A stretch of DNA of 63,357 bases from a virus. The stretch spans positions 1 through 63,357 of the IMG/VR virus record IMGVR_UViG_3300011116_000174; one strand, given 5' to 3'. Positions 4,829 through 56,351 of this stretch are shown piece by piece (the first letter of the stretch is position 1; every line of letters starts with the position of its first letter). Position numbers and translations under genes: made by a program. The notes under the pieces are model-generated. The model searched no databases. It was given only the letters and a program-made list of their open reading frames with translations, and was not told where the DNA came from.

Positions 4829-5188
4829 GCGTGGCGGGACTTTGTTCACTAATTTGTTCACTCTGTTCGGGTTTGTTCACTGGTCAATGAACGGGCGGGA
4901 AGTTAAGCGTGGCGGGACTTCGCGGGATTTGTTGTGTGTTGTTCACTCAAAAAATGAAAATACACGACTTGCCAAAAGGCACTTAGTCCCGCGAAACTTT
5001 ACAATGCGTTCTACCTTTACAATGTCAAGAGAAAATTTATCCCCTGTATACTTTTTGAAAATGAGTGAACAAGTGAACATTTATAATAATAATAAATAAA
5101 ATAGATAGATAGAACAAGAACTTAGCCCTGCTTTGTCCCGAAAAAAGTTTGTTCACTCATGAGTGAACATTGTGAACATTGTGAACAA
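4829..5188. repeat. Iteron-like cluster, candidate replication origin or control region
   Basis: TTGTTCACT occurs at 4842, 4854, 4873, 4939 and 5149. The reverse form AGTGAACA(A/T) occurs at 5064, 5072 and 5162, and TGTGAACA(A/T) at 5171 and 5180. A 14-bp direct repeat GCGTGGCGGGACTT is at 4829 and 4907, and AGTCCCGCGAAA is at 4985 and 5253. An AT-rich tract (about 5079-5115) lies between the two groups. Repeats beside an AT-rich stretch in a gene-free region suit an origin; a regulator array is the alternative. Confidence 0.55.
5150..5169. promoter_or_regulatory. 20-bp perfect palindrome in the iteron cluster
   Basis: TGTTCACTCATGAGTGAACA is perfectly symmetric and made of two head-to-head iteron units. 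A dimeric initiator or repressor could bind it. Confidence 0.6.
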
Positions 5189-5263
5189 AATGGTTGGTGG
5201 CTACTAACATGCTCTCTCCGCCAAAAACTGGTTTCAACTCCACGTCCTGCGTAGTCCCGCGAA

Positions 5264-5280
5264 ATACTGTCAGACAGTAT
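5264..5280. promoter_or_regulatory. Palindromic operator copy 8
   Basis: Perfect ATACTGTCAGACAGTAT directly after an AGTCCCGCGAAA motif. From here to 5462 I see no gene; minus-strand open frames there have no ribosome-binding site. Confidence 0.7.
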
Positions 5281-5462
5281 TTGGGTGTAATTGGGTATCT
5301 TTGTGGGTGCGTGATGTAACGTGAAAGAACTTTATGGAATGAAGCGGGACGACGTGCAACCTGAACGCAACCTACTCGCACCGACCCTCTCTCCCGCGCC
5401 CTCTCCCCAACTCTCCCGCCAACCAGCCCCACCAACCGAGATGACACCAGTTCCCAAAGGGC

Positions 5463-5492
5463 GAAAAAAAACCCCGCCTTTCGGCGGGGCTT
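5463..5492 (-). terminator. Rho-independent terminator of the gene at 5510-5989
   Basis: On the minus strand the stem CCCCGCC/GGCGGGG with an AAAG-type loop is followed by a run of Ts. It lies 18 bases after the stop at 5510. Confidence 0.85.
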
Positions 5493-5509
5493 AGTCCTGC
5501 GGTGTCCTG

Positions 5510-5989
5510 TTACTCGCCGTCGAACTCGTCGAGCGCGTCGATAACGAAAGCCACAAGTTCGGCGTATTGTTCGCGGTATTGCTCAACCGCTTGGCGTAAG
5601 CCCTTGCTAACTGAATCGGCGGGGCTATCCTTAACGATCGACAATTTGACGATCGGCTTGGATTCATTAGCCTTTGTTACCTTCGCGCCCTTCGCGGCGG
5701 GTTTGCGGTAAGCGTTCATGCTAAACGGGACGCCGTCATTGACCGCCTTGCGAAAAGCCGTCGCAAGGTTTTTAATGGTTTGCTCGGCTTTACCCGCTTT
5801 CGATAACACTTCAGTAAAGCGGATCATTACCGCATCTCCGCTTTTAACTGTGCCGAGGGGCTTACCCTTACGTGCCTTGCGTATTGCTTGGCAACCCTTG
5901 TCAATCTCCGCCGTAGCATTACCAGCCACTACAATATTGTTTGCTACGTCAACGCTTAATTGCTCTTGTTTGCTTAACTGAATAGTCAT
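5510..5989 (-). CDS. Hypothetical early protein, monocistronic
   Basis: A 159-residue protein starting MTIQLSKQEQLS with GGAGAATTACT before the ATG at 5989. The N-terminal half is helical and rich in Ala/Lys, the middle (about 105-125) is strongly basic (KPAAKGAKVTK), and the C-terminus is acidic (DALDEFDGE). It has its own promoter (6042-6070) and terminator (5463-5492), which is unusual in this genome. It may be an early DNA-binding or host-takeover protein, but no family is recognised. Confidence 0.7.
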   Translation of the reverse strand: MTIQLSKQEQLSVDVANNIVVAGNATAEIDKGCQAIRKARKGKPLGTVKSGDAVMIRFTEVLSKAGKAEQTIKNLATAFRKAVNDGVPFSMNAYRKPAAKGAKVTKANESKPIVKLSIVKDSPADSVSKGLRQAVEQYREQYAELVAFVIDALDEFDGE

Positions 5990-52554: not shown

Positions 52555-54395
52555 CAACAATCTCCGTAACTATATCCATAACTTGCTTCACAATTTAAAG
52601 GCAAAGTATCCGCCCACGTTGGTCTCCAACGCATACATTCCATCACGTATTGAAGGGCTTCCTCTTTCTCTTCTTCTTTTGCGATACAGGCAACGGCATC
52701 ATGCACCGTTAAAACTACCCTATATCGTTGGCTTATTTTAATCATTTGTTCAGCAATCACACAACGCGCCACTGCTTGACAAATGTTCTCAATTACTTTA
52801 CCGCCGTAAAGCTTTACCATACCGCGTCTTGTCGGGTATTCAAATTGGGTATTACCCTGAGGGTCTGTAACTTTATCAATACCTTCGTAGCGTTGCCATA
52901 ACCCACTGGGTAATAAAAACCCTGCTTTGTATGGGTCAAATCCAACTACATCAGGCACACCCAAAGAGCATGCTTGCTTAGATATTATGGCGTCTAAGCA
53001 TCTACCCGCTTGTTTCCATAGTTCGGGTATCTTTCCGTAAGTCGCCCGATAAATTTGTATAATGTGGCTCGCTTCATCTTCCGGTATATCGACTCCGAAT
53101 GTTTTAAGTTGGGCTTGGAACTTCTTACCGCCCATGCCGTATCCGGCGCCGAGAATCGTCGTTTTACCCACAAACCTCTCTGCCGTAGATATTTCTGAGA
53201 CATCCTTGCTATATATAGCAGATGCCATGATTTTGTATACGTCCTCGCCATTCTCAAATGCCTCCACCAAATCTGTTTGTCCTGCTAACCACGCAACCGT
53301 TCGCGCTTCAATCTGCGACGAGTCTGCATCAATAACCACATACCCTTCGGGGGCGCATATGGCTTTCTTTAATTTGTTTGCGTTTGCCCCGCGACTAGGT
53401 AAGTTTTGTAGATTAATTTTGTCATCACCGCCCCACCGCCCAGTGTGCGCCGCGTAATATTTAATCGGTACAGGTAACTTCCCACGCTTGGCTATATCAA
53501 TAAAGCGTTGTGTGCGCGTCTCTTCAAGCGTAGTCTTGTTGCCCAATCTTGCTTCGACCAAAGCCTGAACGCGAGGATCAGGATGTGATGCCAGTTGCTT
53601 GAACGCTTCGTCGGTCTTAGCAAATGCCCACGCTTCCTTGCCAGTGCGCGCACTGATCTTTGTAGGGGGGTCTACACCCAAAGACTTTAATATATCTGCA
53701 AACTTCTCGTTTGACATCAGCGTATCTTTGTCTGCCACGCACGCTAGTAGTAGGGCTTCCTTTTTGTTTTTAGTATCCTCTAAGTGTTGCTCAAGTAGTG
53801 GTAGGTTTAGTTCCAGTACCGGTTCAATAAACATCTTTAGAGTTGTGTCGATTACCTTGAGTTCTTTCATAGGAAAGCCACCACCAATCCCAGGCAACAT
53901 AAGTATGTTAAACAACGTGTATGTCAAATCCACATCGTTCCTACAATACTCACCATAGGCATCTATCTCTGACTGGGTAAAGTTGTTACGGCGTTTGCCC
54001 ATAGCATTTATCACTTCCGTGCCTTTTTCGCCGATGTTATAACGTTCAGCTAATACTTTAAGACTACCGCCCGCCTCAACACCATGGGTAGCACGAGCCA
54101 TACAAAGTGTATCGAGCCAACCCTTCGGTTTGATACCATAGCGCCAAGATAAAATAGCGCCATCAAACTGAGTGTTGTGCGCTAGGACTAGGCAGTTCTT
54201 CCAGTCATATAGTTTGGCAAAGCGGGACTCGGTCATGTGTTTGTTGTCATACCAAACAGTTTCGCCGTCGTCTTCTTTCACCGCTACACCGATAACCTCA
54301 AACCGATCATCGCGAATGTACTCCTCGGTCGTCAATCGCGACAAAGAATATTCTCTGTCGTAATACGTTTCAAAATCTACCGTTAATATTTTCAT
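52554..54395 (-). CDS. polA: DNA polymerase, family A, with 3'-5' exonuclease
   Basis: A 613-residue replicative polymerase. The exonuclease has the DEDDy set: Asp7 and Glu9 (DFETYY), Asp78 (NTQFDG), Tyr150 and Asp154 (YCRND). Polymerase motif A is DSSQIEAR (Asp358), motif B runs from Lys411 to Tyr419 (KTTILGAGYG), and motif C is VHDAV (Asp566). The residue matching E. coli Pol I Phe762 is Leu415. There is no 5'-3' exonuclease domain. Its start overlaps the upstream gene by four bases. Confidence 0.95.
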   Translation of the reverse strand: MKILTVDFETYYDREYSLSRLTTEEYIRDDRFEVIGVAVKEDDGETVWYDNKHMTESRFAKLYDWKNCLVLAHNTQFDGAILSWRYGIKPKGWLDTLCMARATHGVEAGGSLKVLAERYNIGEKGTEVINAMGKRRNNFTQSEIDAYGEYCRNDVDLTYTLFNILMLPGIGGGFPMKELKVIDTTLKMFIEPVLELNLPLLEQHLEDTKNKKEALLLACVADKDTLMSNEKFADILKSLGVDPPTKISARTGKEAWAFAKTDEAFKQLASHPDPRVQALVEARLGNKTTLEETRTQRFIDIAKRGKLPVPIKYYAAHTGRWGGDDKINLQNLPSRGANANKLKKAICAPEGYVVIDADSSQIEARTVAWLAGQTDLVEAFENGEDVYKIMASAIYSKDVSEISTAERFVGKTTILGAGYGMGGKKFQAQLKTFGVDIPEDEASHIIQIYRATYGKIPELWKQAGRCLDAIISKQACSLGVPDVVGFDPYKAGFLLPSGLWQRYEGIDKVTDPQGNTQFEYPTRRGMVKLYGGKVIENICQAVARCVIAEQMIKISQRYRVVLTVHDAVACIAKEEEKEEALQYVMECMRWRPTWADTLPLNCEASYGYSYGDC

Positions 54396-54625
54396 TTGTC
54401 TAACATGTCATCAACAAGGCACTGAGACAATACTTGTGCCAATCCAACCCTATGCGACTTGCGCTCCTCTTGTTCGTCAGTCGTGTAAATAAAAAGAGAG
54501 TCATCTTTGTGCATAGCGATTCCAACAAAGCTAACTATCTCACCATTTTCAAATTCTTTCAATAGGGTTTTCAATGATGAATAAACATCTTCTCGTTTTC
54601 TATTAATTGATACTATATTTGCCAT
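54392..54625 (-). CDS. Small hypothetical protein before the polymerase gene
   Basis: A 77-residue protein starting MANIVSINRKREDVYSSLKT at 54625 with AAGGAGAAAAG upstream. It has ENGEIVSFVGIAMHKDDSLFIYTTDEQ and ends VDDMLDK. It resembles small phage proteins with a single alpha/beta unit, but no function is known. It lies directly downstream of the gene-free periodic tract. Confidence 0.7.
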   Translation of the reverse strand: MANIVSINRKREDVYSSLKTLLKEFENGEIVSFVGIAMHKDDSLFIYTTDEQEERKSHRVGLAQVLSQCLVDDMLDK

Positions 54626-54649
54626 TTCTTTTCTCCTTGATATCCTCAC

Positions 54650-55290
54650 CCGACCACACCTAGACTCGCATCACCGCACCGTTCCATACCTTACCGAAAA
54701 ATCCATACCATGCCTTACATGACCTTCGCCATACAGCGCCTAGCCGAGCCACGAACTCCTTGCCATAACTCACCCCGCCGTATCGTACCGAACCGAGCCA
54801 TGCCCGAGCGCGAACTCCTTGCCTGACTGAATCCCGCCACTCCTAGCTATAACATGCCGAACCTAGAACTCCGTGTCTTACCAAACTTCGCCGTGCCCGA
54901 CCATGCCGAGCCGTACCGCGCTAGAACCACGATACCCAAACCTTGCCGATCCCAACTTCACCGCACCACACCTCGCCCCGCCTAGTGGGAACCGCAATAC
55001 CCTTGCCAAACCGGGCACGAACTGAACTCACCATGCCCAACCCTGAACTCCTCACTACACCGCACCTTACCCAACCATGCCTCTACTAACCATGAATCCC
55101 TTACCTCACCAGTACAAACCTCGCACCGCCCGACCCGACCTAACCGCATCGCGCATCACCAAAAAATCCATACCGAACCTTTCCTCACCCGACCAGACCC
55201 CGCCGTAGCTAGTCAAGAAGCCCAAGCCTTGCCCTGCCGGATCGGGACAGACCGATCCATGCCGGGACGCGCCATACACTACCGGAGCCT
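54650..55290. repeat. Gene-free tract with degenerate 5-base periodicity
   Basis: About 640 bases with no gene. On the plus strand CC recurs every five bases over long runs (for example accgc accgt tccat acctt), with occasional phase slips; on the transcribed minus strand this reads as GGTNN-type pentamers. The word GAACTCC recurs at 54753, 54812, 54866 and 55045, and AAAAATCCATACC appears near both ends. A 7-bp hairpin GGATCGG/CCGATCC lies at 55239-55258. Origin and role unknown. Confidence 0.75.
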
Positions 55291-55300
55291 GATGCCCTAG

Positions 55301-55912
55301 TTATGCTACTTTTTTGAGTGGCATTTTTACCGCTGCGAACTTTTTAACTTCATAGCGACCATGACGTGGTCTCCAATCGCCGATGCCAACGTAAGAACCC
55401 GCGTCTTCAACCCAACGCTTTAACTGCGCTTCGTTTGCTACGTCTGAGTTAATAGATACTTTGAACTTAGCAGTCCAGTCTTTGAAGTGCGGACGAGTGC
55501 GCATAACCTTTGCCATACCAACACGCACCGCAACACAGATACGATGGTCTTCGCTCTCAACCAACTGATCGACAGTCATTGTTCCGCCTTCGTATGTAAA
55601 CGTAGCATCGGTATCTACAAACATACCTGATAATGCCAATTTACCTTCCTTGCTTTTCTTAGCGCCTTCGACAAGCACCGACTCAAGCACACGACTTGGG
55701 ACAATTACTTCGTTCTTTTTGTTTAGGTATAACCCTGCACGATACTCGATGTTTGCCATAGCTTCATAGTCTGTATCGGTTTTCTTGCGCTTGCTACTAA
55801 TTTCTTTCATAGCTTTGCTAAACGGATTAAGCGGGTCTGCCGTTTGTCCGTTGTGCATAATCAATGAATCACCGCTTAATTCAACTTCATATTGTGTGTA
55901 GCCTTTTGGCAT
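55301..55912 (-). CDS. Conserved hypothetical early protein
   Basis: A 203-residue soluble protein starting MPKGYTQYEVELSGDSLIMH, with ribosome-binding site GAGGAGAGTAAC, and a C-terminal VEDAGSYVGIGDWRPRHGRYEVKKFAAVK. The GIGDWRP(R/K)xGRF motif is one I associate with widespread phage proteins of unknown role. It is followed by the periodic tract. Confidence 0.7.
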   Translation of the reverse strand: MPKGYTQYEVELSGDSLIMHNGQTADPLNPFSKAMKEISSKRKKTDTDYEAMANIEYRAGLYLNKKNEVIVPSRVLESVLVEGAKKSKEGKLALSGMFVDTDATFTYEGGTMTVDQLVESEDHRICVAVRVGMAKVMRTRPHFKDWTAKFKVSINSDVANEAQLKRWVEDAGSYVGIGDWRPRHGRYEVKKFAAVKMPLKKVA

Positions 55913-55934: not shown

Positions 55935-56351
55935 TTATGGACGTCGTGATCGTTTGATCTCTTTCGTCCGCACAGTTTTAGGAACTTTTACCTTCCTCTT
56001 TTTTGGCTTGGAAGATTGTTTTGGTTTAATCTCCCTAGTCAAAACCTTTCGCAACGTCTGATCGCCAAGCGCCCGACGTCTACTTCTAATTGATTCCGTA
56101 ATCCCATCATGACAAGACTCGCATAACATAATCACGTCGTTGATAGTTTCCTCACCCCATGTGTCGTAGTGTCGATGATGTAACTCCATAGCGTATTCTT
56201 CGCTTGACCGCCAACATGTTCCGCACTGATACATTTGTTGTAGCGCTTTTAGGTTACGCAACTGAAACCAATGATCGGGATTTGGGTGGGACTTCGCGGG
56301 ACGTAGGACTTTATGTCCGTCGATCTCCCTAACTCTTTTCAATTGAGTCAT
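55935..56351 (-). CDS. HNH endonuclease
   Basis: A 138-residue protein with CGTCWRSSEEYAMELHHRHYDTWGEETINDVIMLCESCHD: two CxxC pairs (zinc) bracket the HH...N/D...H active-site pattern of HNH nucleases. A strongly basic C-terminus follows. It overlaps the gene upstream by 23 bases. Likely a DNA-nicking or cutting enzyme in phage DNA metabolism. Confidence 0.8.
   Translation of the reverse strand: MTQLKRVREIDGHKVLRPAKSHPNPDHWFQLRNLKALQQMYQCGTCWRSSEEYAMELHHRHYDTWGEETINDVIMLCESCHDGITESIRSRRRALGDQTLRKVLTREIKPKQSSKPKKRKVKVPKTVRTKEIKRSRRP

Follow-up and report, generated by a model that had tools for sequence, protein, structure and literature searches.

Organization of the locus and the pentamer tract

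The window analyzed here is a DNA stretch of 63,357 nucleotides, comprising positions 1 to 63,357 of the viral record IMGVR_UViG_3300011116_000174 of IMG/VR. Between positions 54640 and 55290 it contains a non-coding tract that is bordered by the stop codon of a gene ending at 55301 and by a ribosome-binding site at approximately 54640. The adjacent gene (55301..55912, minus strand) encodes a RAMP (Cas7-like) protein of 203 amino acids belonging to phrog_4652 and is named vipr in the following. The tract is almost certainly the array of guide RNAs (vrRNAs) of a phage-borne VIPR system. VIPR (Viral Interference Programmable Repeat) was first described in a preprint of April 2026 (PMC13142463; bioRxiv 2026.04.26.720920). 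According to this report, it combines the RAMP protein Vipr with vrRNAs composed of 9-16 YNNGG repeats, whose NN dinucleotides recognize double-stranded DNA in such a way that one base between them stays unread, the founding case being phage SUSP1.

An initial annotation had noticed a gene-free tract with CC at every fifth base and occasional phase slips. Both properties were confirmed, as no open reading frame (ORF) of more than 60 amino acids was found in the tract and the autocorrelation that had been proposed as a check gave a clear signal. On the plus strand, 56 CC pairs occur at lag 5, compared to 19.5 +/- 4.0 expected from 2000 dinucleotide-preserving shuffles (z = 9.2), which is the strongest lag-5 signal of the whole window. 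Further peaks were detected at lags 10, 15, 20, 25 and 30 (z = 7.0, 4.7, 4.5, 4.3 and 5.4, respectively), and CC pairs are depleted at lags 2, 3, 7 and 8. Since both flanking genes lie on the minus strand, the RNA of the tract reads YNNGG (equivalent to GGYNN; Y is C or T). The transcribed strand is G-rich, as had been stated; its pentamer lattice had also been recognized, but the proposed reading GGTNN was too narrow because T is not the only base at this position. The coordinates given for the tract and the counts of repeated words (GAACTCC four times, AAAAATCCATACC twice) were correct. The tract matched no Rfam family, contained no tRNA, yielded no array with Tandem Repeats Finder and no direct-repeat array, and gave no match to isolated phages at the DNA level.

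A parser for the YNNGG lattice divided the transcribed strand of the array (54640..55290, minus strand) into eleven guides of 9-13 repeats each. The guides are separated by a four-nucleotide RNWT word (AGTT, ATTT, GTAT, GATT etc.), and the spacing of the boundaries is 49, 54, 59 or 69 bases (5k+4) with a few one-base slips. Hence, most of the phase slips are regular, being four-nucleotide insertions after each 5k+4 bases. The RNWT word accounts both for these slips and for the recurrence of GAACTCC, since GG-AGTT-C reads GAACTCC on the other strand. The AGGAG-like sites, for which a function as an anti-Shine-Dalgarno sponge had been considered, are punctuation at guide boundaries. Guide 1 (55218..55281) comprises 10 or more repeats, its 5' end being uncertain. 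Guides 4 (55046..55094) and 5 (54997..55045) have nine repeats each and guide 8 (54813..54866) has ten; the final guide extends to the ribosome-binding site of a downstream ORF. Many pentamers of the array carry one G only. A compilation of 145 guides from the window and its relatives showed a pyrimidine at Y in 96% and a G at each of the two G positions in 87-88% of the cases, with NN being nearly even. In 121 arrays of many phages, the gaps between pentamer runs are mostly 4 modulo 5 in length, so that this slip would seem to mark boundaries in general.

The Vipr protein

The assignment of the array is supported by its neighbour. Vipr of the window and Vipr of SUSP1 share 33% identity over 176 amino acids (BLASTP, E 8e-37) and fall into a single PHROG, 4652, which is annotated as being of unknown function. 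A profile of the window Vipr family matched PDB entry 36pp_D, the SUSP1 Vipr protein (E 1.3e-41). An AlphaFold model of the protein (pLDDT 92.9) was compared to known structures using Foldseek, and the best 50 PDB matches were all Csm, Cmr or type VII chains, the top ones being Csm/Cmr RAMPs with E 3.5e-6. Judged by this model, Vipr of the window has the Cas7/Csm3 RAMP fold. The fold is accompanied by a glycine-rich loop, near-invariant residues of the protein being G172, G176, R181, P182 and G185. The initial annotation had named a protein-loading array among several guesses, and this guess was right. As a whole, the annotation is partly supported; it had overlooked both the RAMP gene next to the tract and the role of the repeats as guides.

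Distribution of arrays with vipr

Homologues of the 203-amino-acid gene were used to retrieve viral contigs, and in each of the 16 contigs found in this way the gene is accompanied by an array of this type. An assembly artefact is ruled out because these 16 independent metagenomic contigs with a homologous neighbour gene bear the same kind of array. In a second survey, the viral collection was scanned with the bare pentamer pattern, disregarding any protein, which yielded at least 120 stretches. Besides the window, at least 120 contigs passed the array criterion; among the 120 listed, 16 had been fetched by the vipr gene and the remainder by the DNA pattern alone, and a vipr homologue is present in 88. 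In most cases, this homologue immediately precedes or follows the array and shares its strand. Array contigs devoid of a vipr homologue mostly showed weak signals or had the array near a contig end.

The phrog_4652 gene is also present in 130 records of isolated phages including Felixounavirus, Mycobacterium phage LittleE and Gordonia phage Trine. In most of the isolates inspected, pentamer runs interleaved with longer, apparently structured repeats occur in the non-coding spaces that flank the gene pair. At actinobacteriophage VIPR loci (L138:2885-3235, L139:6143-6506 and L140:5520-5560), pentamer runs alternate with hairpins resembling a tRNA T-arm, e.g. GGGGTTCGACTCC, which are perhaps guide tails or a processing signal. 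The VIPR module of LittleE (L139:4980-6506) is embedded in the block of tail genes next to the tape measure gene and is encoded on the other strand, an arrangement that would fit a mobile cassette. Two further arrays (L025:8230-8667 and L019:3967-4729, strand with GG pentamers) have units parted by conserved words of 30-50 nucleotides, with no four-nucleotide slip; an example of such a separator in L025 is GGTATAAGTTTTTAAGAGG.

Turnover of guides and constraint on the variable bases

Near-identical phages differ in their sets of guides, entire guides being retained, lost or replaced. For instance, several window guides are also found in the near-identical sister contig L002, in which others have been lost or replaced. 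Comparison of homologous guides revealed differences at Y in 17.6%, at N1 in 8.5%, at N2 in 11.0%, at G1 in 9.2% and at G2 in 7.8% of the comparisons. Thus, NN changed about half as often as Y, and 116 of the 122 changes at Y were exchanges of C and T. For these rates, the tested repeat was excluded from the matching; they are descriptive, since related sequences are not independent. Guides act as exchangeable modules in which the NN positions are constrained.

Predicted targets under the one-base-skip reading

Guide 3 (55095..55163, 13 repeats), read as NNx codons, spells [FL][DE]AAYRRG[DE][FL]L[DE][KN]. Its predicted target is the C-terminus of tyrosine integrases, EAAYRRGDLLEK. A scan of the viral collection with the eight central dinucleotides as search core gave nine matches. 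Five contigs, three of which are near-identical, agree at 12 of 13 dinucleotides, including four of the five outside the core; all five sites lie in tyrosine integrase genes, the skipped base being codon position 3. The remaining four matches look like chance. When bacterial genomes were scanned with eleven dinucleotides, 24 matches were obtained, all to one integrase motif with the skipped base again being codon position 3; 22 of these sites lie within an open reading frame resembling an integrase. Most of these genomes, which belong to the Pseudomonadota and in many cases to the Burkholderiales, match at 12 of 13 dinucleotides.

Guide 11 (54640..54698, 11 repeats) is predicted to target the N-terminus of the family-A DNA polymerase of other phages (SKMTAEEYVRD). 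Agreement is complete (11 of 11 dinucleotides) in four related viral contigs of 45 kb, and two further contigs agree at 10 of 11. In the former four and in L207, one of the latter two, the matching site is located in frame close to the N-terminus of a DNA polymerase that is a homologue of the window polymerase. Neither an integrase nor vipr was found in the four contigs. Both guide 3 and guide 11 match through pentamers in which GG is broken.

Guides of relatives that had never been used for fetching match a second integrase motif, TFRDWAAEETD, at 11/11, 10/12 and 9/10 dinucleotides. Within the integrase loci, 13 guides had at least eight matching dinucleotides when one base was skipped, a number that includes the guide 3 family by which these loci were fetched; skips of 0, 2 and 3 gave 4, 2 and 4 guides and shuffled guides 3.3. 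The numerous skip-3 matches of one scan were discarded, as they most likely reflect guide arrays matching themselves in newly added contigs of relatives.

Four other guides served as a chance baseline. No match was obtained with guide 2 (55164..55217, 10 repeats) and guide 10 (54699..54753, 9-10 repeats, one slip). Guide 9 (54754..54812, 11 repeats) gave nine matches with at most one of three flanking dinucleotides, and guide 7 (54867..54931, 12 repeats, one slip) six with at most one of four, which is chance-like. Eight consecutive dinucleotides of guide 6 (54932..54996, 11 repeats, one slip) match the 5' end of a tRNA-Ser gene of Comamonas (L176:6146-6235; 8/11). This match could be an attachment-site target or chance, and it stays a weak lead because one such match among 87 guides could arise by chance.

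The polymerase gene of the window itself contains a site homologous to the guide 11 target (54309..54341, minus strand), which matches only 7 of 11 dinucleotides, while the corresponding site of sister L002, which is devoid of guide 11, matches 9 of 11. An escape of the phage from its own guide is possible. It is only suggestive, because the entire 5' end of the polymerase gene is divergent and other relatives without guide 11 also have 7 of 11.

Neighbouring genes

Upstream of vipr, a gene for an HNH endonuclease of 138 amino acids (55935..56351, minus strand; PF01844, E 1.2e-5) encodes a candidate Vipr-accessory protein. Homologues occur upstream of vipr in the close relatives L002-L015 and in three more distant ones (L021, L117 and L049). 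BLASTP revealed no relation to vap1 (phrog_5926), the partner gene of SUSP1. The protein may be an accessory nuclease or the product of an independent homing gene. Downstream of the array, an ORF of 77 amino acids (54392..54625, minus strand), whose ribosome-binding site abuts the array end, is followed by the family-A DNA polymerase gene (54395 to 52554). No adaptation genes are among the neighbours examined (HNH gene, small ORF and DNA polymerase). The record contains no recognizable tyrosine integrase; therefore, the phage is probably lytic. Judged by the terminase, the nearest isolates are phage DSL-LC04 and Pelagibacter phages. Remote from the array, a region of about 600 bases (4900-5510) near a change of gene direction contains GTGAACA as a short direct repeat and, at about 5470-5492, a hairpin resembling a terminator. 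It is possibly a regulatory or origin region.

Proposed mechanism and alternative explanations

The array and the upstream vipr gene presumably share a transcript. Vipr subunits would coat each unit of 9-13 repeats, gripping GGY and displaying the two variable bases, which would pair with target DNA and pass over one base from each dinucleotide to the next. Bound Vipr would block transcription or, provided that the HNH protein is a genuine partner, might permit cutting. The present analysis covers the array, its anatomy, the homology of Vipr and the one-base-skip matches in sequence; formation of the RNA-protein complex, DNA binding and repression are expected by analogy with the experiments on SUSP1 (PMC13142463). 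In a cell shared with such competitors, the window phage would benefit from shutting down the integrase of a resident prophage or satellite as well as the polymerase of a rival phage.

Some observations weigh against a VIPR array. The window lacks both the structured 3' tail of the SUSP1 guides and vap1. Moreover, six guides of the window were used to scan the viral collection, and four of them (2, 7, 9 and 10) gave no convincing target. Finally, the integrase and polymerase motifs are conserved, and matches in many genomes are therefore not independent events.

Among the alternatives, the one that survives best accepts a VIPR array but assumes that its complex goes beyond repression and cleaves targets by means of the HNH protein. 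The position of this gene directly upstream of vipr in close and more distant relatives would fit, as would the predicted nucleases or helicases of types III-V among the seven types of the VIPR tree (PMC13142463). On the other hand, nuclease types have been linked to host defence and not to lytic phages (PMC13142463), and HNH genes of phages frequently are homing genes in their own right. The role of HNH is a guess, and we consider cleavage through it unlikely, albeit worth bearing in mind. That the locus is a relic in which most guides have lost their targets is far less probable. Several guides had no target in the collections scanned and many pentamers retain a single G, but guides 3 and 11 match through pentamers with a broken GG, the constraint on NN persists, and guides are still turned over among sisters.

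It is even harder to reconcile the data with a G-rich structural element, e.g. an R-loop or replication element forming G-quadruplexes in RNA or DNA, in which the pentamers merely space GG pairs. One GG per five bases suits two-tier quadruplexes and the tract lies within a region of replication genes, but folding of the whole tract did not reveal excess structure (z = -0.95 in a model without quadruplexes), contrary to the structural RNA considered initially. Such an element would also leave the linkage to Vipr, the constraint on NN with a free Y and the in-frame target matches unexplained, and we regard it as highly improbable. A functionless degenerate minisatellite grown by slippage and drift can be practically dismissed. 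The tandem lattice with its slips and the repeated words would suit it, but Tandem Repeats Finder detected no array, copies share GGY only, whole units are swapped between relatives, NN is conserved among homologous guides, and the same lattice recurs, mostly beside the same gene, in over 100 viral contigs whose GC content ranges from about 40 to 70%. The growth by duplication and drift that the initial annotation had proposed is likewise rejected in its simple form, because the units differ at NN and are exchanged among relatives.

The guide array of a VIPR system thus remains the preferred interpretation. It provides an independent computational confirmation, from raw sequence, of the one-base-skip code in another phage group and adds two kinds of targets with a clear logic, integrases and the DNA polymerase of a rival. 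Furthermore, guides turn over between near-identical phages, and the code tolerates C or T at Y but keeps NN. The minimal punctuation suggests a packing of about one guide per 55 bases, and the pattern scan shows that viral contigs frequently contain such arrays, which are readily detected.

Comparison with known systems

VIPR has been proposed as the ancestor of CRISPR. A single preprint describes it, and a literature search found no second paper naming it. Similar to Class 1 CRISPR-Cas systems with their Csm3/Cas7 backbone and crRNA arrays, the window system has a RAMP fold and modular arrays with turnover of units and, by analogy, would show a periodic grip on the guide RNA. What separates the two is that the window array has no identical repeats, is predicted to read gapped dinucleotides, is borne by a phage and has no adaptation genes among the neighbours examined. 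The locus does not qualify as a CRISPR-Cas array, which would consist of near-identical repeats with unique spacers, as neither a direct-repeat array nor adaptation genes among the neighbours examined were found.

Closer counterparts are the VIPR loci of Felixounavirus wV8, Mycobacterium phage LittleE, Gordonia phage MakoManhole and Pseudomonas phage Medea1, which also combine a phrog_4652 gene with pentamer guides. Unlike the window, they possess fewer guides, interleaved longer structured repeats and phrog_5926 as a second gene. The type II system of the Escherichia phage SUSP1 (Vipr at NC_028808 28474-29061; PDB 36pp) has in common with the window a homologous Vipr (33%), YNNGG guides with conserved GGY located beside the gene, a one-base-skip reading, for the window seen in target sequences, and, as predicted for the window, competing mobile elements as targets. 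The 9-13 repeats of the window guides are within the published range of 9-16. By contrast, the eleven guides of the window follow one another without interruption, parted by four-nucleotide RNWT words alone, and the partner gene encodes an HNH protein instead of vap1. As the invariable structured 3' tail is missing, the window system is not filed as type II; other array layouts are mentioned in the preprint (PMC13142463). The window system is an additional case of VIPR and possibly a distinct subtype. We put forward only tentatively, and as somewhat doubtful, that such a subtype is defined by a tail-less array in which the 5k+4 slip alone parts up to eleven guides, by a lytic phage as carrier and an HNH partner, and by guides aimed at both the integrases of prophages or satellites and the replication polymerase of rival lytic phages.
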